In this document: piece after piece, positions 4,063-32,208 of the stretch | Layout: every line of letters starts with the position of its first letter | Position numbering within the stretch: position 1 is the first letter of the stretch | Assembly: GCF_028736155.1 (NCBI RefSeq) | Contig: NZ_CP117879.1 | Coordinates: forward strand, 2,604,001 to 2,668,000 | From: Flavobacterium sp. KACC 22763 | GTDB taxonomy: Bacteria; Bacteroidota; Bacteroidia; Flavobacteriales; Flavobacteriaceae | Length of the DNA: 64,000 nucleotides | Direction of reading: 5' to 3' | Made by a program: the position numbers and the translations under genes | The notes under the pieces: model-generated | What the model was told of the DNA's origin: nothing | The model's database searches: none | What the model saw: only the letters and a program-made list of their open reading frames with translations

Positions 4063-4569
4063 TTAAAGCTTAACAAATATGTTAGTATAATATTTTTTTC
4101 CTGTAGCCGGATCTGTCGTTACAGACAATCCAAAATGAGTATAATCTCCTACTATATTTTCTTTGTGACCTGGACTATCCAACCAAGCTCTTAAAGCCGC
4201 TTCGGGAGTTTTATAATTGTAAGCAACATTCTCCCCTACTTTTTTTGCACCCAGTACACTAGTCATATTACTAGATCTTGCCACAAAATCGTTATGATCC
4301 ACAACATTATTTGCAATCATATATTTATTATGCTCTTCACATTTAAATGATATATGATTAATCCTTTCCAAGGCATTCAAACCAATACTCACACGGTATT
4401 CGTTTATCAGTCTCATCGTTTCTATTTCGGTATCGTTGTATGTGTAATTTGCAACAAGCGTTTCTGTTGGAGTAGCAGTATCCAAGCTTGCTTCGGCAGA
4501 ATCAGCAGAACATGCGTTCATTGCGAACAAAATCGCAATGAACAACATGGTGCGCGTAATCTTTTTCAT
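4063..4569 (-). CDS. CAP-domain (SCP/PR1-like) lipoprotein
   Basis: I start at the third clustered ATG (MKKITRTMLF, 168 residues), because it gives a clean lipoprotein signal with lipobox MNAC; the in-frame ATG at 4581 would add four residues. The mature part is a CAP domain: INEYRVSIGLNAL, CEEHNKYMI, DHNDF, GENVAYNY and AWLDSPGHKENI are the family's conserved blocks. The two histidines and the glutamate usual for the CAP cavity are present. Bacterial YkwD-type CAP proteins are exported; their biochemical activity is mostly unknown. Monocistronic: own terminator at 4000-4036 and a candidate promoter at 4660-4692. Confidence 0.9.
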   Translation of the reverse strand: MKKITRTMLFIAILFAMNACSADSAEASLDTATPTETLVANYTYNDTEIETMRLINEYRVSIGLNALERINHISFKCEEHNKYMIANNVVDHNDFVARSSNMTSVLGAKKVGENVAYNYKTPEAALRAWLDSPGHKENIVGDYTHFGLSVTTDPATGKKYYTNIFVKL

Positions 4570-4659
4570 AATCATCAGCATTTTAGCGGTTTAAAGTAAA
4601 TGTTGGGGCAAATCCTTTAAATTTATCTTTGAATAAATATCGTTTGCTTTATTGTATTC

Positions 4660-4692
4660 CAAACGTATTCAATTTACCGTTAAAGTGCAAAA
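4660..4692 (-). promoter_or_regulatory. Candidate Bacteroidota promoter for the CAP-domain gene
   Basis: On the - strand TTTTG (complement of 4688-4692), 20 bases, then TACGTTTG (complement of 4660-4667), matching the -33 TTTG / -7 TAnnTTTG pattern. It would give a leader of about 85 bases. Confidence 0.5.
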
Positions 4693-4754
4693 ATAATCGA
4701 TGAAATGCACTTATTTTTTAATTTTAAATATAAAATTCCTACGTAAAAATACGT

Positions 4755-5399
4755 TTACGAAGATAACCTTTCAATCTTCCAAGAAAAATCTGACTGACTA
4801 GTATAACGAATCCTATCATGAAGTCTATTTGGTCTTCCTTGCCAGAATTCAACTTGTAGTGGAGTCACAATATAGCCACCCCAATTTTCAGGTCTCGGAA
4901 TTGATTTTCCCTCAAACTCAGTTTCTAGTTTTTTTAAGTTTTCTTCTAAAAATGTTCTTGAAGGAATCACTTCACTTTGGTGAGAAACAATCGCTCCAAG
5001 TTTACTTCCATCAGGACGAGAATCAAAATAATTGTCTGAAATAACTTCAGATGTTTTCTGAGCAATTCCTTTAATAATCACTTGACGTTCGGCTTCCTGC
5101 CAAAAAAAAGACAAACAAACATTTGGATTAGCTTCTATTGCTTTCCCTTTTTCCGAATTGTAATTGGTATAAAATATAAAACCTTCCTCAGAAAATTTCT
5201 TCAATAAAACCACACGCGATTTCGGAAAACCATCTAATCCAATTGTCGAAACTGTCATGGCATTCACTTCTCCACTTCCACCAAAATCTTCCACTTCATG
5301 AAACCATCGGTTAAAAAGATTAATTGGATCTTCAGGAATATTAGTTTCCAGTAATTCACTTTTCTCGTAAGATTTTCTATAATTACTTAAATCATTCAT
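4755..5399 (-). CDS. pdxH: Pyridoxamine/pyridoxine 5'-phosphate oxidase
   Basis: FMN enzyme that oxidises pyridoxamine- or pyridoxine-phosphate to pyridoxal-phosphate in the cytoplasm, the last step of vitamin B6 synthesis and salvage. The start MNDLSNYRKSY gives 214 residues, the normal PdxH length; the open frame extends 10 codons further into repeat DNA that is unlikely to be coding. Visible blocks: PSRVVLLKKF-like FMN site (SRVVLLK), FIFYTNYNSEKGKAIEANP, LSFFWQEAERQVIIKG, SHQSEVIPSR, and the C-terminal VEFWQGRPNRLHDRI substrate-binding signature. Last gene of a - strand series with rnz upstream; the 126-base gap to rnz is filled with repeats. Confidence 0.96.
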   Translation of the reverse strand: MNDLSNYRKSYEKSELLETNIPEDPINLFNRWFHEVEDFGGSGEVNAMTVSTIGLDGFPKSRVVLLKKFSEEGFIFYTNYNSEKGKAIEANPNVCLSFFWQEAERQVIIKGIAQKTSEVISDNYFDSRPDGSKLGAIVSHQSEVIPSRTFLEENLKKLETEFEGKSIPRPENWGGYIVTPLQVEFWQGRPNRLHDRIRYTSQSDFSWKIERLSS

Positions 5400-5424
5400 A
5401 GTTTTTGATTTTAGTTTATTTTGT

Positions 5425-5527
5425 TTCAAGTTTCAAGTTTCAAGTTTGTCAGGCTGAGCGAAGTCGAAGCCTTTCTAGTTACAATAAGAAACTTAGCATC
5501 TTAGAACCTTAGAATCTTAGCATCTTT
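5425..5527. repeat. Composite intercistronic repeat (TTTCAAG array, GTCAGGCTGAG palindrome, TTAGAANC octamers)
   Basis: Three parts fill the pdxH-rnz gap. First, TTTCAAG repeated tandemly (about 5425-5447). Second, a 24-base unit at 5448-5471 beginning GTCAGGCTGAGCGAAG, also found at 6914 and, inverted, at 6970 and 47340. Third, imperfect octamers of the TTAGCATC/TTAGAACC/TTAGAATC type at 5490-5527, ending at the rnz stop codon. Octamer arrays of the same type occur at 32291 and 51137. Confidence 0.8.
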
Positions 5528-6431
5528 AAAATTCAAAACTCACTCCATCATCTGCTAAAAGCACGTTTGGAAAAACTGCTTCTGCTTCTTTTTTAAATGG
5601 CTCCAAACCATCATAACGAGTTGAATAATGACCTAAAATAAGCTGTTTTACATTGGCTTTTAAAGCAATATTTGCGGCTTCTTTTGCTGTCGAATGGAGT
5701 GTTTTTTCTGCCAATCTTGCTTCAGATTCCAAAAATGTCGATTCGTGATATAAAATATCTGTATTCTGAATAATCGGAATTATCTCTTCGTTGTAAACTG
5801 TATCAGAACAGAAAGCATAACTTTTGGCTGGTGGCGGATCAAAAGTAAGTTTCGCATTCGCCACTACAGTTCCATCATCAAGCGTGATATCGCTTCCGTT
5901 TTTTATTTTCTGATAATACGCTACATGTATATTATAGCGCTGAACAGCTTCAACATCTAATTTTCTTTCATCTGGTTTTTCCTGAAAAAGATAACCATTT
6001 GTGTAAACACGATGCTTTAGCGGAATTGTTTTTACAATAACTTTCTTGTCTTCAAAAATGACTTCACTTTCTTTCGATTCTAATTCATGAAAAAACAAAG
6101 AATAAGTCGTCCAAGATTCTGTTAGTTTCAATTGAATTAAAACAAATTCCTTAATTCCTTTCGGACCATAAATATGTAAATCTGTGGTTCTTCCTAAAAG
6201 TGAGAATGTCGAAATAGTTCCAATTAATCCAAATAAGTGATCTCCATGAAGATGCGATATGAAAATGTGATTAATTTTTGAGAATTTAATCTTGTTTTTG
6301 CGAAGCTGTACCTGAGTTCCTTCTCCACAATCAATTAAAAACAATCTGTTCTTAATATCTAAAACCTGCGAAGTCGGATTAGTAAGTGTTCTGGGAGTTG
6401 CGGCATAACAGCCAAGTATAGTTAACTTCAT
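5526..6431 (-). CDS. rnz: Ribonuclease Z (tRNA 3'-processing endonuclease)
   Basis: Metallo-beta-lactamase-fold endonuclease that trims the 3' trailer of tRNA precursors. The 301-residue protein has the zinc motif HLHGDH (H60, H62, D64, H65), the N-terminal GCYAATPRTLTNPTSQ substrate loop typical of tRNase Z, a flexible-arm region around residues 150-190, and later metal ligands in SDTVYNE and LGHYSTRY. Short-form RNase Z length. It ends next to an octamer repeat and is preceded by a 59-base inverted-repeat spacer after the STAS-like gene, so the two are probably cotranscribed. No anomalies. Confidence 0.96.
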   Translation of the reverse strand: MKLTILGCYAATPRTLTNPTSQVLDIKNRLFLIDCGEGTQVQLRKNKIKFSKINHIFISHLHGDHLFGLIGTISTFSLLGRTTDLHIYGPKGIKEFVLIQLKLTESWTTYSLFFHELESKESEVIFEDKKVIVKTIPLKHRVYTNGYLFQEKPDERKLDVEAVQRYNIHVAYYQKIKNGSDITLDDGTVVANAKLTFDPPPAKSYAFCSDTVYNEEIIPIIQNTDILYHESTFLESEARLAEKTLHSTAKEAANIALKANVKQLILGHYSTRYDGLEPFKKEAEAVFPNVLLADDGVSFEF

Positions 6432-6436
6432 TTCTC

Positions 6437-6490
6437 AATTAAAAATTGATAATTGACAATTATTAATTTTTAATTATCAATTGTTAATTA
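6437..6490. repeat. AT-rich inverted repeat between the STAS-like gene and rnz
   Basis: TTGATAATTGACAATTATTAA and its near reverse complement TTAATTATCAATTGTTAATTA (each quoted over about 20 bases) face each other around a short loop. The array ends exactly at the TAA (6491-6493) of the upstream gene, as in other gaps in this window. Confidence 0.7.
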
Positions 6491-6823
6491 TTAGAAACCT
6501 AGGTCTCTTTCGATTTCTTCCATTTCAATAATATCGTGAGCCTCTAGAAGAGAAGGCACTACAACCAATTTATCTGAAATAGCATTAAAATCAAGATCGG
6601 TTGCTACAATTACAAACGATTTTTTTGCTTTTTTCTGAGCTTTAGATAGCGGTAAAAAAGCTTTTAAATCATTTTCTGAAATATTAGAATCAGCTGATAA
6701 ATCGATTATAATATTTTGTTTTTCAAAGGTTTTAAATTGTTGCGTTACTTTTTCCAAGAAAGCATTTACATCTCCTTGCGTATCTTTAATCGTAACGGTA
6801 TGTCCTTTTTGATCTACTTTCAT
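6491..6823 (-). CDS. Small stand-alone STAS-like protein
   Basis: A 110-residue cytoplasmic protein with no signal or membrane segment. Alternating strands and helices (HTVTIKDT, NIIIDLSAD, LPLSKAQKKAKKSFVIVATD, LVVVPSLLEAHDIIEMEEIERDLGF) resemble a STAS/anti-sigma-antagonist fold: a strand ending in a polar loop, helix, and strand-helix pair. The serine or threonine normally phosphorylated in anti-sigma antagonists is not obvious. It sits directly upstream of rnz, probably in one transcript. Homologues next to rnz in Flavobacteria are, as I recall, often labelled ribonuclease Z by neighbour; the sequence has no metallo-beta-lactamase motif, so that label would be wrong. Function unknown. Confidence 0.7.
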   Translation of the reverse strand: MKVDQKGHTVTIKDTQGDVNAFLEKVTQQFKTFEKQNIIIDLSADSNISENDLKAFLPLSKAQKKAKKSFVIVATDLDFNAISDKLVVVPSLLEAHDIIEMEEIERDLGF

Positions 6824-6892
6824 TTTATATTTTTGAGGGCTTATATTTATGCTAATTTACTAAGTTTTTTTGTTTTTTGCTGTTTCACGTTT

Positions 6893-6993
6893 GAAGTTTC
6901 ACATTTCACGTTTGTCAGGCTGAGCGAAGTCGAAGCCCACGTTTGCAAAGCACGTTTAGTTTAAAAAAACACTTCGACTTCGCTTAGTGTGAC
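6893..6993. repeat. Paired GTCAGGCTGAG palindromic units forming a large hairpin after pyrB
   Basis: A TTTCACG-type tandem run (about 6893-6913) precedes a 24-base unit at 6914-6937 identical to 5448-5471. A diverged inverted copy follows at 6970-6993 (CACTTCGACTTCGCTTAG...). Together they can form a long imperfect stem between the pyrB stop codon and the STAS-like gene start, plausibly acting as a terminator or mRNA-stabilising stem for pyrB. Confidence 0.75.
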
Positions 6994-7021
6994 ACTTATT
7001 TCAAAACCGAACACTGAAAAA

Positions 7022-7948
7022 CTACTGTATCTTAGAAGCCAGCAAATAAATAACCGCCATTCTAATCGCAACTCCATTCTCCACCTGATTCAAGATCACC
7101 GAATGATCAGAATCAGCAACTTCAGAAGTAATCTCTACTCCTCTATTGATTGGTCCTGGGTGCATAATTACGATTTCTTTTCCAAGCGAGTCCAAAAGTG
7201 GTTTGTCTACTCCATATTGTTGTGCGTATTCACGCGTTGATGGGAAGAAATTCACATCCATACGTTCGTTTTGTACACGAAGCATATTGGCAACATCACA
7301 CCATTCTAAGGCTTTTCTTAAATTTGGTTCAACTGTAACACCAAGCGATTCAATATATCTCGGAATTAGTGTTTTTGGCCCGCAAACTTTTACTTCTGCG
7401 CCTTGCATCTGCAAAGCATATATATTGGATAAGGCAACTCTCGAATGCAGAATATCGCCTACAATAACTACTTTTTTTCCAGCAACATCACCTAGTTTTT
7501 CTCTAATTGAATAACTATCTAATAAAGCTTGAGTTGGGTGCTCGTGCGCTCCGTCTCCCGCGTTTACGATACTCGCTTTGACATTTTTAGATAAAAAATA
7601 AGCCGCTCCGGGATTAGAGTGGCGCATTACAACCATATCCACTTTCATCGAAAGGATATTATTTACAGTATCAATCAAAGTCTCTCCTTTTTTAACCGAT
7701 GATTGAGCTGCAGAAAAACTGATTACATCAGCAGATAAACGTTTCTGCGCTAATTCGAAAGAGAGTTTGGTTCTGGTACTGTTTTCGAAGAAAATATTGG
7801 CAATGGTAATATCTCGTAATGAAGGAACTTTTTTAATCGGTCTATTAATGACTTCTTTAAAATGATCTGCCGTTTCAAAAATCAGGTTAATATCATTCTC
7901 ATTGATATATTTTATTCCTAATAAATGATTTACGCTTAATTCTTTCAT
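7022..7948 (-). CDS. pyrB: Aspartate carbamoyltransferase catalytic chain
   Basis: Condenses carbamoyl phosphate and aspartate to carbamoyl-aspartate, the committed step of pyrimidine synthesis. At 308 residues it has normal catalytic-chain length. Carbamoyl-phosphate site: FFENSTRTKLSFELA (S-T-R-T-K); further blocks are SSVKKGETLIDTVNNI, VMRHSNPGA, GDGAHEHPTQALLD, VGDILHSRVALSN and the aspartate-binding IMHPGPINRGVEI. No pyrI regulatory chain is seen, consistent with PyrR-controlled bacteria. pyrR is directly upstream on the same strand, 151 bases away, so the pair is probably one pyrimidine-responsive transcript. Confidence 0.97.
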   Translation of the reverse strand: MKELSVNHLLGIKYINENDINLIFETADHFKEVINRPIKKVPSLRDITIANIFFENSTRTKLSFELAQKRLSADVISFSAAQSSVKKGETLIDTVNNILSMKVDMVVMRHSNPGAAYFLSKNVKASIVNAGDGAHEHPTQALLDSYSIREKLGDVAGKKVVIVGDILHSRVALSNIYALQMQGAEVKVCGPKTLIPRYIESLGVTVEPNLRKALEWCDVANMLRVQNERMDVNFFPSTREYAQQYGVDKPLLDSLGKEIVIMHPGPINRGVEITSEVADSDHSVILNQVENGVAIRMAVIYLLASKIQ

Positions 7949-19010: not shown

Positions 19011-19505
19011 AATTAATAAATATTAGTTAATAGAAAATAAATAATTGGGCCACAGCAGCATAAAAGCTTCTGGGTTTCGCTCAACTGCAGGTTGGAAGGC
19101 TGCTGTCGATTGGAAATAAACTCAAATTACATTCTATAGATAAATATTACTATTACTGATTTTTACATAATCATTAGCCAATAGTAGTGATTGATATTTA
19201 TTTATAATTTTTAAAAAAAATAATGTTAAATACAAATGATAAATTTGGGACGACTCATCAATCTATACTCTTTTTTTGTCATGTTTTATTCTATTCTTTC
19301 TATTTGGTTTTTAAAAGGTTAATACTCAGTTATTGGTTATTTTTAGTTTGTTATAATTTATTACTTAATTGTTGTCTCGGTCTAAAAAAAGAATTCCAAA
19401 ATTTTAATCGTAATTACCTCTGCCATAAGCATGGCAGAGATAATCAACACTCTAAAAAAACATTAGTAACTCAAAAACGTACTAAATACTAATTCAAATC
19501 CAACT
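19011..19505 (-). promoter_or_regulatory. 495-base region upstream of chiA with structured leader
   Basis: No gene is supported here. It contains a stem CAGCAGC (19053-19059) / GCTGCTG (19099-19105) with inner complementary pieces, which would lie in the chiA mRNA leader. A 14-base word ATTTAACATTATTT (complement of 19218-19231) is shared with the MFS transporter promoter at 30639-30652, and a nearby GTCGT (complement of 19250-19254) weakly recalls the operator motif. A perfect 9-bp hairpin lies at 19418-19439. No canonical TAnnTTTG box was found. Confidence 0.5.
19418..19439. terminator. Perfect 9-bp hairpin between hex and chiA
   Basis: CTCTGCCAT, 4-base loop, ATGGCAGAG. There is no T run on either strand, so it may be an mRNA 3'-end stem of the hexosaminidase transcript or an attenuator rather than a classical terminator. 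Confidence 0.4.
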
Positions 19506-25494: not shown

Positions 25495-28400
25495 TTAGAA
25501 AGTTAAATTCAAATTAACACCTATACTTCTTGTTGAAGGCAATCCGAAAATATCAACACCTTGCAATCCTTCTCCTGAACTTAATGTTACGTTTGGATCA
25601 AACGGAGCATCTTTGTAGAAGAAAAATAAGTTTTTACCAACAAGAGAAACATTCACTGCTTTGAAGATTGTAGTTTTGCTGAAATCAAAAGTATATCCTA
25701 GAGAAAGCTCGCCTAATTTAACATTTGTTGCTTTGTACATATACTCTCCAGTAGCACCAGCTCTATCTCCAACTGAACTATAGTAATTTTGTGCAGACAT
25801 TGTCGTTACTGGAACTCCATCTTCATCTAAAGCGTTTACTTTAACTCCTCCAGCAGCTCTTGCATCGCCACTAGCTTTAGATACACCATAAGAATCAAGC
25901 ATTGCTTCTGTCATACTCATTACATTACCTCCAAATCTTCCATCAATAAGCACATTTAAGAATATTTTCTTGTATTTGAAAGAGTTTGAAAAACCTAACA
26001 TAAAATCAGGGTTTGAACTTCCCATGTCTATCCACTTTTCCGTTTTTTGAACTAAAGCTTTATCTCCTTTACCAGCAAGCAACATCTGACCTTGATCATT
26101 TCTCAAAATATCCTTTCCTTGAATTGTCCCGAATGGCTGTCCTTCTTTCATAACATATCTGTAGCTATTTGGATCACCATTAGTCAATACAACTGTATTA
26201 AGTTCTCCATTTGCACCTGTACCTAAATCAAGTACTGTATTTTTATTTGAAGCATAATTCAATCCAAGATCCCAAGAGAAATTCTCATTTTGAATTGCTT
26301 TAGCAGTTACTGTAATCTCAAAACCTTTATTTTCAATACTTCCTGCATTAAATGCATAGTTAGCATATCCCGTAGTATTTGGAATTGGAGCTGGCGCCGT
26401 GATTAATTGATTTTTAGTTTCGTTATGGTAGTAAGTAAAATCAAATCCGATTCTGTTGTTTAAGAATCTCCATTCTGTACCAAATTCATAAGAATTTTGC
26501 ATTTCTGGCTTCAAAGAAGTTCCTGGTTGTGGACCAACTAATGGTGGTGTAACAATACCACCAACTAAAGTATTTACTGGTGAAGTTAAGAAAGGAGAAA
26601 TATCATTACCCACTTGAGCAAATGAAGCTCTAACTTTTGCATAACTAATTGCTTCAGGTAAAGATACCATTTGGCTTAAAACAGCTGATAAACCTACTGA
26701 AGGATAAAAGAAACTTAAATTATCTGTATTTACCAAAGTTGATGACCAGTCATTTCTTCCAGTCAAATCAAGATAAATCATGTCTTTGTAACCAATCGTT
26801 GCACTTGCAAAAAGTGATTGAACTTCTTTTTTACCTCCAACAGTATGAGCATTTCTTTCTGCAGATACAAAGTTTCCTGTATTAAACCAGTTTGCATTTA
26901 CAAGTCCATTTTTTTGACCTGAATCACTTAAGTAAGCATCGTTGATTGTAGATTTTGTGATACTTGTACCAAGGTTAGCGCTGAATGAAAAATCATCACT
27001 GAATTTAGTATTGATAGTAGCAATTAAATCTCCATATAATTGGTTACTTTCACTATCTGAGTAAATATATCTACCTGTAGATGGTGCCAATGTTTCATTT
27101 GTACCAGCATACATTCTCTTATCAAAAATATTATCAAATTTATTATAACCTCCTCTTGCTTTAATGCTTAACCAATCTGTTGCTTTATATGTAATAGCTG
27201 CAGAAGTAATTAAAGATTGATTTTTATCAATAGATTGATTTCTATTTAAAATCCAACCTGGATTTTGAATAATATCGGATGTCTGAGCAGGCCATCTTTG
27301 AGTCATTAAGTTTCTTGACACATTGAATTCTTCAAAGTTTTTATAGTAATCGTTAAAATCATTTCCTCTTGGGAATAAATAAACACCTGTCAATGGATTG
27401 AAGTACAATCCGTTTGTTGGTTTATTTATAATTTTTTGCTCTGCATAAGATATCGCACCATCAATAGTTACTTTATCATCAAATAATTTAACGCTTTGAC
27501 GAAGTGCAATGTTATTTTTCTTAAACTCGTTTGTTGGAATTACACCATCAACTTTAGTGTTTGCATAAGTAAGACTAGTTGACATTTTATCAGATCCACC
27601 ATTTACAGATACAGAGTTGATCATAGTAAGACCTGTATTGTAAAAATCTTTTACGTGGTCAGGAGAGTTTTTAGGATCTCCCCAAGTTTTATCAGATGAT
27701 GGCGCTGCACCATAACTAGTTTGAAATTCTGGTAATGAAACTACATTATCAACAAATACACTCGCGTTATAAGATGCTGTTACGTTTCCTTCTTTTCCTT
27801 TTTTAGTTGTAATTACGATAACACCATTTGCTCCTTGAGAACCATATAAAGCAGCTGCAGAAGCTCCTTTAAGAACTGTCATCGATTCAATATCATCAGG
27901 GTTCATCATAGAGATTGCATCTCCACCATCTCTATTTCCTCCAGCTGTATCACCAAAAACCTGATTTGCTTGAGATGAGTTAGAGTTTAACATTGGAATA
28001 CCGTCAATAACATATAATGGCTGGTTATTTGTTGCAGATGAGTTACCACGTATAGTCACTTTTGCTGCACCACCAGCTCCAGCTGAACTTTTTCCAACAA
28101 TAAGACCCGCAACTTTACCAGATAAGCTGTTCATTAAGTTAGCATCCTTAACTCTTGTAACCTCTTCCCCTTTAACTTCCTGGGCTGCGTAAGTCAAAGT
28201 CTTTTTTGATCTTTTAAGTCCCAATGAAGTTACTACTACTTCATTTAGTGCATTTGATGCAGCCTGTACCATTTTTACATTTATTGTAGCAGCATCGCCT
28301 ACAACTATGTTCTGTGTTCCAAGACCTACATAACTAAAAACTAATGTCTGTCCTTTTTGAACTTCAATCGTATACAATCCATCAAAATCGGTAGTTGTTC

Positions 28401-28545
28401 CTTTTTGACTTCCTTGTACCAAAACAGAAGCTCCTGGTAATGGCATACCTTCAGAATCTGTAATCACACCTTTGACACTTTTTACTTGTGCAAGCGAAAC
28501 TTGCGCCGTAAAAACAATCATAAAGATTAAGAAAATTTTTTTCAT
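25495..28545 (-). CDS. SusC/RagA-family TonB-dependent outer-membrane transporter
   Basis: A 1016-residue TonB-dependent porin importing oligosaccharides with its SusD partner. Signal peptide [21 protein letters not shown]-terminal carboxypeptidase-regulatory-like domain ([20 protein letters not shown], about 22-105), TonB box/SusC signature region, plug domain (about 115-235, with VYVIDGIP-like [10 protein letters not shown] and [23 protein letters not shown] split over this span), then a 22-strand-type barrel to the C-terminal FNLNLTF-like end (GVNLNLTF). First gene of the susC-susD-nagB-hex-chiA series, divergent from the LytS/LytTR pair. A direct repeat at 28609-28642 in its promoter region is a candidate activator site. 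Confidence 0.96.
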
Positions 28546-28608
28546 GTTTATTTTATTTTGTTAGTTATGAAGTAAAATTATTCTTAAGGCATTGTTAAAA
28601 AAAATAAA

Positions 28609-28642
28609 TTAAACCAACGACAACAAAATTTAAACGAACGAC
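28609..28642 (-). promoter_or_regulatory. Candidate LytTR-type operator upstream of susC (13-base direct repeat, 21-base period)
   Basis: On the - strand GTCGTTCGTTTAA (28642-28630) is followed exactly 21 bases later by GTCGTTGGTTTAA (28621-28609), one mismatch in 13. Two half-sites on the same face of the helix are typical for LytTR-domain regulators. The second half-site occurs without mismatch upstream of the MFS transporter (30626-30638). The divergent kinase/regulator genes start 178 bases away, so autoregulation is possible. A near -7 box TAATTTTA follows 41 bases from the start of the proximal half-site. Confidence 0.65.
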
Positions 28643-28819
28643 ATAAATCATTCAATAATACGCTTTACGAAAACGTTCTAATAGAAAAATTAAGCACCAA
28701 TATCCTTTTTTTGCGAAATTTTATTCAAAAAAATTGGCATATTGCAGTTAATTGTTTAAAGTTGCACAATATTTCAATATTGTTAAGAAAAACTAAATTT
28801 ATCTAACTCACCCAACCAA

Positions 28820-29872
28820 TTGAAAGAAATAAGAAAAGTTAAATTTGACATCAAACTGCAAAACCATATATGGTTCTGGGGAGTATATTTTACTTTAAAC
28901 TTTTTAAGATGGGGTGCTTACTTTAATGATTATCCTTATTCTTTCAAATCGAACTTAATCGAATTTTCATTAGTCATTCCTTTAGTGTATCTTAATTTGT
29001 TTGTTTTGGTTCCGAAGTATGTATTGAAGCAAAAATATATTATGTATACATTTTTATTGCTTCTAAGTCTATTTGCAATTTATTTGGCTAAAACCGCCCT
29101 TACCTACTATATAATATCTGAAAATATCTGGCCAGAAGCCAATAGAGAATACCATCCATTTGAAATCAATCACATAGTTGCCGTTTGCATTGGTGAGTTG
29201 TATGTACTGGCAATGGCATCATCTGTTTACCTCACGTTAACATGGTTAAGAGAAAGAGAAAGAAACCGATCTTTGAGAGAAAACCAATTTAAAATAAAAC
29301 TTAAGTATCTTGAAAATCAGATTCAGCCACATTTCTTCTTTAATACATTAAACAATCTGTATGCTTTATCATTAGAATCTTCAAAGAAAGTTCCAGATGT
29401 AATTATCAAGCTTTCCAACTTGATGGAATATGTATTGTATGATGTAAAAGGAACCAAATTTGTTCCTCTAATTAAAGAAATCGATTATATCCAGAATTAT
29501 ATTGAAATAGAAAAACTCCGTTTTGAAAATGTAGAAGTAACGATAAACCTCGAATCAAATATAGATGATGTTGTCGTGCCACCTCTAATTTTTATCTCAT
29601 TGGTTGAAAATGCCTTCAAACATGGCGGATTAAACAATAAAAACCTAAAAATTAAGATCAATTGCAGAGTTTTAGACAATAAAACGCTTGATTTTGAAAT
29701 CTTAAATAATTTTGTAATTTCACAAACTCATAATCCAAAACGAGGAATCGGTTTAGTTAATACAAAAAAGAGGTTAAAATTAATTTATAGAAATAATTTC
29801 AGCCTTAAACATACCACTAAACTAAATTTCTACATAATCCGATTGCAAATACCTACCCAGAATGAAGATTAA
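28820..29872 (+). CDS. LytS/YehU-type membrane sensor histidine kinase (TTG start)
   Basis: A 350-residue kinase with four hydrophobic segments in the first about 145 residues (HIWFWGVYFTLNFL, FSLVIPLVYLNLFVLV, FLLLLSLFAIYLA, ELYVLAMASSVYLTLTWL), then a His_kinase/HATPase region: NQIQPHFFFNTLNNLYAL with phosphorylated H171, PPLIFISLVENAFKHG and a late GIGLVNTKKRL glycine box. The codon at 28820 is TTG; an in-frame stop lies shortly upstream and no ATG fits the domain, so TTG is the likely start. The stop overlaps the downstream LytTR gene by 11 bases, so they are cotranslated. Divergent from susC. Probably senses a chitin-derived or transport-related signal; ligand unknown. Confidence 0.93.
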   Translation: MKEIRKVKFDIKLQNHIWFWGVYFTLNFLRWGAYFNDYPYSFKSNLIEFSLVIPLVYLNLFVLVPKYVLKQKYIMYTFLLLLSLFAIYLAKTALTYYIISENIWPEANREYHPFEINHIVAVCIGELYVLAMASSVYLTLTWLRERERNRSLRENQFKIKLKYLENQIQPHFFFNTLNNLYALSLESSKKVPDVIIKLSNLMEYVLYDVKGTKFVPLIKEIDYIQNYIEIEKLRFENVEVTINLESNIDDVVVPPLIFISLVENAFKHGGLNNKNLKIKINCRVLDNKTLDFEILNNFVISQTHNPKRGIGLVNTKKRLKLIYRNNFSLKHTTKLNFYIIRLQIPTQNED

Positions 29873-30563
29873 ATGCGTGTTAATTGATGATGAGCCTTTA
29901 GCTATCAAAGTCCTGCAAAATTATTTTACCAATTTTACAGATTTTGAAGTTATAGCAACATTCAATAACTCTTTAGAGGCGCTTGATTTTATCAACAGTA
30001 CCCCTGTTGATGCTGTCTTTTTAGATATTAACATGCCTATGATGACTGGTTTTGAGCTTATCAGTCTCATTGAGAACAAAACTAAAGTTATCATTACTAC
30101 TGCATTTAGAGAATTTGCTGCAGAAAGTTATGATTTGGATGTATTAGATTATTTGGTTAAACCAATTCCGTTGCCAAGATTTATAAAATGCATCAATAAA
30201 ATCACCACCGAATACAATCTCAAAAACAATATTAAAGTAGAAACCACAAAAGGCGATTCTCATATTTTTATTAAAGTCGATAAAAAAATGATGAAAATTA
30301 ATATTGAAGAAATTTTATTTGTTGAAGGAATGAAGGAATATATAAAAGTGGTCACGCCAGATAAAACCTATATTACTCATAAATCTCTTACATCGCTATC
30401 AGAAGAATTACCCGCAGATCGTTTCCTAAGAATACATAAATCGTATGTGATCGCACTAAATAAAGTAAAATCTATAGAAGGAAACCGCGTTCAAATTCAA
30501 TCATACAACATTCCAATAGGCAGAAACTACAGTAAAGAAGTTAAAAACAAGATATTAGAATAA
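29862..30563 (+). CDS. LytTR-family response regulator
   Basis: A 233-residue regulator. The receiver domain (1-120) has the acidic pair DDE at 9-11, phospho-acceptor D55 (VFLDINMPMMTG), T86-region IITTAF and K105-region LVKPIPLPRF. The LytTR DNA-binding domain (about 135-233) has IFIKVDKKMMKI, EEILFVEGMKEYIKV, THKSLTSL, FLRIHKSYVIALNKV and VQIQSYNIPIGRNY. The gene overlaps the kinase gene. Flanked by susC and the MFS transporter, whose upstream regions share a 13-base motif, so it is inferred to activate the chitin locus. Confidence 0.94.
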   Translation: MKIKCVLIDDEPLAIKVLQNYFTNFTDFEVIATFNNSLEALDFINSTPVDAVFLDINMPMMTGFELISLIENKTKVIITTAFREFAAESYDLDVLDYLVKPIPLPRFIKCINKITTEYNLKNNIKVETTKGDSHIFIKVDKKMMKINIEEILFVEGMKEYIKVVTPDKTYITHKSLTSLSEELPADRFLRIHKSYVIALNKVKSIEGNRVQIQSYNIPIGRNYSKEVKNKILE

Positions 30564-30604
30564 AACATAATTACGAATTACATTTTCTAACTAGGTTAAA
30601 ATTA

Positions 30605-30652
30605 ACACTTTGTTGAAAAAACATAGTCGTTGGTTTAAATTTAACATTATTT
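30605..30652 (+). promoter_or_regulatory. Candidate LytTR-type operator upstream of the MFS transporter gene
   Basis: GTCGTTGGTTTAA at 30626-30638 is identical to the proximal susC half-site. Exactly 21 bases upstream, ACACTTTGTTGAA (30605-30617) is a weak second half-site (7 of 13). The motif runs straight into ATTTAACATTATTT (30639-30652), also present upstream of chiA at 19218-19231. Confidence 0.6.
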
Positions 30653-30738
30653 ATACCTTTTTATTTTTTTTTGATAATCCTAACAAATATATTTACGGTC
30701 TTCAAAAAACAATAAAATAAAAAATTAACCTTATTATT

Positions 30739-32208
30739 ATGAGTTCAGAAAATGTGCAAACCAAATGGGGGCAATTTATCTCTTTGATAATCGTCTTCTT
30801 CTTTTGGGGTTTTGTTGGTTCAGCCAATGACATCCTGATTCCAGTATTCAAAAAAGTATTTACGTTATCGCAAGTACAATCTCAATTAGTAGCTTGGGCA
30901 TTCTACGCTGCTTATTTTGTTGGATCAATTATATTCTTTATCGTTTCTTTAAAAGTAGACGTTTTACAAAAATACGGCTATAAAAGAACCTTATCTGCAG
31001 GATTAGTTTTATCTGCTATAGGTTCATTTTTATTCGTTCCAGCTGCTACAATTCAAAGTTTCCCTTTCTTTCTAACAGCTTTATTTACAGTAGGATTAGG
31101 ATTTTCAATTCAGCAAATTGTGGCAAACCCTTTAGCTATTAAAATGGGAAGCCCAGAAACTGGAGCACACCGTTTGACACTTGCAGGAGGAATCAACTCT
31201 TTCGGAACAACAATCGGAGCTATTTTATTAGGTATTGCCTTGTTTGGAATGGGAGACAACAAAAAAACAGCTCTTTCATTAGACGATATTAAATTGCCAT
31301 TCATCATTTTAGGTCTTGCATTTATTGCTGTTGCTATTTTTATGAATTTTTCTAAAATCGAAGATCCGGTAAAAGAAGAAGAAGCAATCATCAAAGACAA
31401 ACACAGTAAATTCAACATTCTTGACTATCCACAATTATACTTGGGTATGTTAGGAATTTTTATTTATGTTGGAACTGAGGTAACTATCATCAGTAATCTA
31501 CCAGCCTTATTACACACTCACGAGTTCGGAAATGTACTAGAAGATGCTGTTGCACCATTTATTGCGCTTTACTGGGGAAGTTTAATGATCGGCCGTTGGA
31601 ACGGTGGAGTAAACGTATTCAATACTTCTAACTTGGTAAATACTGCACTAAAATTTATCGTACCAGCTATAGCTTTTGGAGTAATCATTGGAGCAAATAT
31701 CTTTGCTGCACACGATGTTTCTTCATTCTATATCTATCCAATCTGGATTTTACTATTTATTGCTGTAAGTTTTGTTGGTGGTAAAAACGCTGGAAAAACC
31801 TTAATGCTTTTCGGAATTTCAGGATTAACAATGATGGTTTTAGGATTAGCTTGGCCAAACCCAGAAATCGCTAAATTCTTCTTTATTTCTGGAGGATTGT
31901 TCTTATCTATCATGTGGCCTTCAATCTTCGATTTAGCGATTGCAGGATTAGGAAAAAACACAGGAAAAGCATCTTCTTTCTTGATCATGATGATTCTTGG
32001 AGGTGGAGTTATTCCATTGGTTCAAGGAAGTATCTGTGATTTAGATGCAACAAATCCAAACGGAATTTTCGGCATCACTTACACTCACTTCTCTTACATT
32101 GTACCGCTTATTGGTTTTGCATATTTAGGATTCTATGGTTTCTACTGTCCTAAAATCTTGAAAAAACAAGGAATCAGCCACGTACAAAGTGAAGGTGGCG
32201 GACACTAA
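30739..32208 (+). CDS. Sugar MFS transporter (FucP/NagP-like)
   Basis: A 489-residue inner-membrane protein with about 12 hydrophobic segments, starting MSSENVQTKWGQFISLIIVF. Family features of the FHS sugar:H+ symporters are FWGFVGSANDILIPVFKKVF, QLVAWAFYAAYFVGSI, YGYKRTLSAGL, QQIVANPLAIKMGSPETGAHRL (here quoted as QIVANPLAIKMGSPE) and WPSIFDLAIAGLG. An insertion between helices 6 and 7 (KIEDPVKEEEAIIKDK) is charged. Position in a chitin locus suggests GlcNAc as substrate; fucose or glucose cannot be excluded from sequence alone. Preceded by the shared operator motif and followed by a strong terminator. Confidence 0.93.
   Translation: MSSENVQTKWGQFISLIIVFFFWGFVGSANDILIPVFKKVFTLSQVQSQLVAWAFYAAYFVGSIIFFIVSLKVDVLQKYGYKRTLSAGLVLSAIGSFLFVPAATIQSFPFFLTALFTVGLGFSIQQIVANPLAIKMGSPETGAHRLTLAGGINSFGTTIGAILLGIALFGMGDNKKTALSLDDIKLPFIILGLAFIAVAIFMNFSKIEDPVKEEEAIIKDKHSKFNILDYPQLYLGMLGIFIYVGTEVTIISNLPALLHTHEFGNVLEDAVAPFIALYWGSLMIGRWNGGVNVFNTSNLVNTALKFIVPAIAFGVIIGANIFAAHDVSSFYIYPIWILLFIAVSFVGGKNAGKTLMLFGISGLTMMVLGLAWPNPEIAKFFFISGGLFLSIMWPSIFDLAIAGLGKNTGKASSFLIMMILGGGVIPLVQGSICDLDATNPNGIFGITYTHFSYIVPLIGFAYLGFYGFYCPKILKKQGISHVQSEGGGH

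Follow-up and report, generated by a model that had tools for sequence, protein, structure and literature searches.

The 64,000-nucleotide stretch of the Flavobacterium sp. KACC 22763 genome analysed here (the window; the genome is a single contig of 5.56 Mb) contains a chitin gene cluster in which cusR, encoding a LytTR response regulator, lies between two promoters sharing a repeated 13-nt word, and the question is whether these repeats are the operator through which CusR acts on both sides. The first-pass annotation had proposed a LytTR operator common to the susC and MFS transporter promoters and had extended it to chiA. Strong support for the common operator comes from its co-occurrence with cusR, from phylogenetic footprinting, from a fixed spacing to the promoter box and from the published geometry of LytTR sites; the link to chiA did not hold. 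Judged from sequence comparison, the probability that CusR, whose gene separates the two promoters, has these repeats as its operator is about 0.87.

Open reading frames and Pfam placed chiA, a GH20 gene, nagB, cusD and cusC on the minus strand of the window and cusS, cusR and the MFS transporter gene on the plus strand (Table 1). The contiguity of chiA, GH20, nagB, a SusC/D pair, a two-component system and an MFS transporter is that of a chitin utilization locus (ChiUL); five of the proteins were called by Pfam, and chiA, GH20 and nagB from translations and the published gene order. NCBIfam named none of the five proteins above cut-off, the MFS transporter resembling FucP/GluP/NagP with every score below it. 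A PDB sequence search with CusR was uninformative, giving mainly receiver-domain matches among the best 60 of 94. CusR is 94–100% identical to the CusR of 80 compared loci, mostly from Flavobacterium. The ChiUL of Flavobacterium johnsoniae is alike in the kinds and order of genes around CusS/CusR, and CusSR is needed there genetically; it has two SusC/D pairs, whereas the window has one (PMC5127042; here and below, published work is cited from the portions of text available).

Table 1. Genes, candidate regulator sites and promoter boxes around cusR (positions in the window; promoter positions presumed from the −7-like box).
Feature	Position	Strand	Remarks
cusC, SusC-like TonB receptor, proposed target	25495..28545	-	Pfam PF00593, PF07715, PF13715
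cusC −7-like box, TAATTTTA	28573..28580	-	28 nt downstream of slot 3
cusC slot 3, GTCGTTGGTTTAA	28609..28621	-	exact motif; presumed −53 to −41
cusC slot 2, GTCGTTCGTTTAA	28630..28642	-	exact motif; presumed −74 to −62
cusC slot 1, weak, GCGTATTATTGAA (relatives ~RCRYATTRTTGAW)	28651..28663	-	presumed −95 to −83
AACGTTTTC box upstream of cusC	28669..28677	-	conserved; within GAAAACGTTTTC palindrome in several relatives
cusS-like sensor histidine kinase	28820..29872	+	Pfam PF06580 (His_kinase family)
cusR, LytTR response regulator, proposed binder	29862..30563	+	Pfam PF00072 (receiver), PF04397 (LytTR)
MFS slot 1, ACACTTTGTTGAA	30605..30617	+	21 nt before slot 2
MFS slot 2, GTCGTTGGTTTAA	30626..30638	+	exact motif
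MFS −7-like box, TATATTTA	30688..30695	+	49 nt (28+21) downstream of slot 2
MFS sugar transporter, proposed target	30739..32208	+	Pfam PF07690

Exact copies of GTCGTTSGTTTAA number three in the genome; each lies in one of the two promoters flanking cusR, and the first-pass annotation had located all of them correctly (cusC slots 2 and 3, MFS slot 2). Shuffled windows contained 0.01 exact matches on average and none of 100 shuffles reached three. Mismatch-tolerant single sites were not enriched, with 18 matches at up to one mismatch in the genome compared with 30 in the reversed control, and six at up to two mismatches in the window, a number reached in 14 of 100 shuffles; the signal thus resides in the exact word and its 21-nt pairing. 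A genome search for the pair, proposed earlier, was run with the pattern GTTNGTWTAA-N11-GTTNGTWTAA, which is looser than the one first suggested, and returned only two exact matches, so that the objection of many random occurrences falls away. Weak pairs are background, since nine matches with up to two mismatches were found in the genome as against 17 in the reversed control; in the window, three matches with up to three mismatches were no enrichment over the shuffle mean of 1.1. A one-mismatch pair at G000:C1:5389244, among ribosomal protein genes as read from translations, was set aside as chance. Among repeat lags of 13–34 in the window only 21 scored high (38.2; next best 18.8), which is a description rather than an independent test, as these and the orthologous sites were the source of the matrix.

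The promoters were footprinted on 92 cusC-side and 94 MFS-side intergenic regions, taken from the window itself and 100 loci (80 cusR loci and 20 further stretches, five of these around paralogs). Nine loci gave no cusC-side region (L080, L110, L132, L139, L144-L148) and seven no MFS-side region (L129, L143, L144-L148). Weighted conservation was calculated on 80 of the 92 and 90 of the 94, leaving out duplicates and regions of at least 330 nt, including the divergent L135 and L136. At cusC, conservation was 0.98 at 12 positions of slot 2 and 0.88 at 12 positions of slot 3, compared with 0.40 and 0.53 at position 7 and 0.55 in the 8-nt spacer between them; GTCGTT and GTTTAA are fixed, and position 7 and the spacer are free. 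The weaker slot 1 (mean column conservation 0.81) lies 21 nt from slot 2, in register with slot 1 of the MFS promoter. Slot 3 with its 28-nt spacing to the −7-like box was present in 89 of the 92 regions, and slots 2 and 3 with that spacing in 83; the exact pair was absent from nine. It stands before CusC proteins 33–97% identical to that of the window, and where two cusC starts were found (9 of 40 longer stretches), both carried the pair 62–66 nt before the start in eight of the nine.

The MFS promoter has one exact site, and the weak half-site that had been reported 21 nt before it is indeed there as slot 1, although it scores only 3.5 bits of a maximum of 20.8 with the strong-site matrix. 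Its form ACACWTTGTTGAA is present in 81 of the 94 MFS-side regions. Conservation was 0.84 at 12 positions of slot 2 and 0.55 at position 7, 0.79 on average in slot 1 and 0.65 in the upstream flank; the footprint is less sharp here because the spacer between the two slots (0.80) is as conserved as the slots themselves. The site stands before transporters 41–99% identical to that of the window. The site pattern failed in five of 91 distinct regions, of which, by eye, L119 and L125 read GTAGTT[GC]GTTTAA, L140 reads GTCGTTCGTATTT, and L137 and L142 have no site. The transporters themselves fall into groups, 22 of 88 being less than 60% identical to the window's, yet the operator is kept; this divergence behind a constant operator suggests replacement of transporters behind a retained promoter.

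Both promoters are phased to a −7-like box of the Bacteroidota type. In 103 of 105 distinct contexts, selected for carrying the exact pair, TANNTTTA follows the pair at exactly 28 nt, and the remaining two (L171, L172) have TAAATTTG in its place. The distance from MFS slot 2 to the box was 49 nt in 85 of the 86 regions with a recognisable site. As 49 is 28 plus one 21-nt step, slot 2 is equally placed at both promoters and the MFS promoter is without slot 3, which suggests a ladder of slots at 21-nt steps, with cusC holding three and MFS only the distal two. The flavobacterial −7 box lies at −12 to −5 with the consensus TAnnTTTG, whereas most boxes here end in A (PMC9723704); from that placement follow the slot positions given in Table 1. 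This phasing, the possible third cusC slot, a fourth promoter described below and the lack of a pair before cusS-cusR were all absent from the first-pass annotation.

The only other exact pair of the genome lies about 2.1 Mb away at G000:C1:4781238-4781268, again with the 28-nt spacing, before a gene for a 267-aa protein followed by one for a 920-aa TonB-dependent receptor. The 267-aa protein had no Pfam or NCBIfam match. Six of the 150 same-genus genomes compared have its gene at no less than 73% identity, and all six carry the pair; in G109 the gene has internal stops. More distant homologues (29–39%) occur in 37 further genomes, none with an exact pair away from cusR. In the stretch L228, which holds the unlinked operon under its operator copy (4349-7934, minus strand), part of a paralogous pair is found at the stretch end.

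Taken together with the phasing, a reading that goes beyond the operator itself is that CusR occupies a ladder of up to three rungs at a fixed distance from the −7-like box, that the filling of the rungs sets strength or threshold, and that the unlinked TonB operon is governed as well; this fuller reading is tentative, and we put it slightly below an even chance. If it is true, the cargo of the unlinked receptor would be chitin-related. It competes with a narrower one, in which CusR binds the strong-word slots and a second factor owns slot 1 and the AACGTTTTC box. The low score of MFS slot 1 suits that view, and so does the position of AACGTTTTC 35 nt upstream of slot 2 both at cusC and, by coordinates, at the unlinked operon (G000:C1:4781286-4781306, minus strand); the box may be the site of a second regulator, which from the look of the palindrome we assume may belong to the LacI family. 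A longer pattern built on AACGTTTTC had a single exact match in the genome, the unlinked promoter that was itself one of its sources, and showed no excess when up to three mismatches were allowed (57 matches, 87 in the control). Slot 1, however, keeps the exact 21-nt step and the register at both promoters, the MFS promoter has slots 1 and 2 only, and LytTR operators with three repeats exist (PMC11347149), so that ownership of slot 1 by a second factor seems unlikely, though it deserves some weight.

The distribution of the pair supports its assignment to CusR. Full-length cusR was found in 44 of the 150 same-genus genomes (all at E 3.9e-109 or below; the full-length match ranking next, 50% identical, had E 3.5e-71), and a degenerate form of the pair in 40 of these 44 and in none of the 106 others. 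The 40 genomes held 57 exact matches, as against three for the reversed control across all 150; 51 of the 57 lie within 10.4 kb of cusR (same contig, by eye), and the remaining six precede one orthologous unlinked operon, that described above. The genomes with cusR and without an exact pair are G045, G061, G117 and G147; G046, whose cusR is truncated where a contig ends, was grouped with the 106, and moving it would give 40 of 45 and 0 of 105. The Fisher value of 3e-32 is a guide only, as it takes no account of relatedness; the genomes are related, and the 40 of 44 cannot be counted as that many separate events. The gene behind the pair is nagB in L177 (95 nt on) and in L188 (154 nt on), and the stretches examined there contained no match to cusC. 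The genome G017 (L188, L139) has a cusR ortholog and carries the pair upstream of nagB, yet neither cusS nor cusC was matched in its stretches. In other genera, five of 297 genomes had the pair and five of 299 had its reversed control. One of the five (L250) is real, with matches to cusS, cusR and cusC and the same operator, cusR and cusC running off the 3-kb stretch. The others (L248, L249, L251, L252) were rejected, as they had no cusR, cusS or cusC match within 3 kb; the exact pair of L252, which has weak matches to chiA (27%) and MFS (30%) close by, was treated as chance.

This distribution also bears on the possibility that a different regulator, a LytTR paralog or a global one, binds the repeats and that the adjacency of cusR is coincidental. 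Candidates for such a role are at hand, as the genome has at least 19 CusR-like matches (all of the 19 scored out of 70 candidates), among them a paralog 47% identical to CusR over its length at G000:C1:2099854-2100555. The pair, however, was found in none of the 106 genomes without full-length cusR, yet all 150 have a CusR-like match (by E ≤ 0.001 alone, the LytTR domain not being confirmed in each), and 51 of 57 pair sites lie close to cusR, which makes another binder improbable. That the words are an extended core promoter or an A/T-rich upstream element and no regulator's site, as their constant spacing from the −7-like box and their T-rich flanks might suggest, is more improbable still, given that half-site, 28 nt and box occur together exactly only twice in the genome, that the pair tracks a single regulator, and that at cusC two words recur 21 nt apart and the spacer between them is free. 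Tolerance of up to one mismatch in that combination gave 13 matches (two exact) against 24 in the reversed control, and the inexact ones are therefore background.

LytTR regulators recognise words of the consensus [TA][AC][CA]GTTN[AG][TG]. Positions 3–9 of GTCGTTNGT fit it and positions 1–2 (GT) do not, and the free position 7 coincides with its N. In a LytTR Regulatory System (LRS) the LytTR regulator is paired with a membrane inhibitor and the repeats lie upstream of its own operon; CusR, by contrast, carries a receiver domain and is partnered by a histidine kinase, and no recognisable pair precedes its own operon. The remaining features are those of LytTR operators in general: imperfect repeats with a 21-bp period (28609-28642 and 30605-30638), the constant 28 nt to TANNTTTA upstream of presumed start sites, and a regulator gene nearby with the PF04397 domain that accompanies the pair across genomes. 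The standard LytTR site consists of 9-bp direct repeats with a 12-bp spacer (PMC2714321, PMC2766830, PMC6193735). The sites of PlnC/PlnD of Lactobacillus plantarum have that layout with a CGTT core (TACGTTAAT), lie just upstream of the core promoter and often have one degenerate repeat; the repeats here differ in the 13-nt word with a conserved TWTAA, the possible third slot and the Bacteroidota promoter (PMC2714321). AgrA of Staphylococcus aureus likewise binds two direct repeats upstream of agr P2/P3 as a LytTR dimer, its proximal repeats being centred near −60, whereas the slots here would be centred at about −47, −68 and −89 (PMC4227749). The operators of CoxC and RcoM have three direct repeats at two-turn intervals but a different word (TTNNNGCN / TTCNNGCA), and CoxC differs further in that it represses, overlaps −35 and has a membrane MHYT sensor domain and no receiver domain (PMC11347149).

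The 21-nt repeat of LytTR type is thus a known kind of site, while this instance and its predicted gene set are new to the literature searched. The LytTR operators cited are all from outside Bacteroidota. The available text of PMC5127042 describes no operator and has no occurrence of 'promoter' or 'operon', control of the chitin locus being known in the work cited from mutant phenotype only; the available text of a Bacteroides regulon reconstruction (PMC3878776) has no occurrence of LytTR. Among the matches listed, titles and abstracts nowhere described this operator, subscription journals being mostly outside the scope of the search.

If CusR is the binder, activation by stacking at the 21-nt slots appears the most likely mode on the present sequence evidence. 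CusS would presumably phosphorylate CusR when chitin oligomers are sensed, and CusR would bind half-sites 21 bp, that is two helical turns, apart on one face of the DNA, where stacked CusR just upstream of the RNA polymerase site would activate transcription. With slots 1–3 on offer, the complex at cusC would adjoin the −33 region, and at the MFS promoter, which offers slots 1–2, it would sit two turns further upstream. As cusC, cusD, nagB, GH20 and chiA stand in a row on the same strand, several of them are probably under the cusC site, presumably by read-through. The locus thus yields a precise candidate operator, a predicted gene set in which the unlinked receptor operon is included, and, for activation at promoters of the Bacteroidota, a spacing rule of 28 nt, or 28+21.

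Other promoters of the window were scored for the same pair. The upstream regions of GH20, nagB and cusS have none; the best pair score before cusS was −4.6, and autoregulation through such a pair was accordingly not seen. A cusS half-site of 8.3 bits was rejected, as it overlaps TAATTGTTTAAAGTTGCA, which, on visual inspection of 21 rows, is conserved in the closer relatives and may be the cusS core promoter. The window's TAAATTTAT before cusS was found at the same place in only four of 91 distinct leaders.

The link to chiA had been drawn from ATTTAACATTATTT, which adjoins the MFS site and also occurs upstream of chiA. The word is present in the window at both places (30639-30652, plus strand; 19218-19231, minus strand) and in 74 of the 94 MFS-side regions, but of 27 regions upstream of chiA only that of the window contains it, and the link is thereby lost. 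These 27 regions comprise 22 from matches at least 87% identical (window included), one at 65% and four at only 26–29%. As a direct target chiA was rejected in the window, where the best half-site scored −0.4 bits and the best pair −13.4. The 65% match (L187) has one strong half-site of 17.1 bits to which a partner adds nothing (pair 16.8), and a half-site in L160 (13.7) and a pair sum in L153 (12.8), about 100 nt before chiA within the leader, were taken as chance. F. johnsoniae lacking cusS-cusR no longer grows on chitin and has lost ChiA (PMC5127042), a dependence that is at odds with the absence of a site before chiA in the window; control of chiA could be by read-through from cusC, by indirect control or by a different type of site. 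The chiA leader itself (window 19011-19250, minus strand) had no Rfam match, the sole sub-threshold one lying elsewhere. It is strongly conserved among 19 sequences, a long inverted repeat AAATATCAATCACTACTATT ... AATAGTAATATTTAT being followed by a second hairpin, and four of its 30 predicted pairs are changed on both sides in these sequences.
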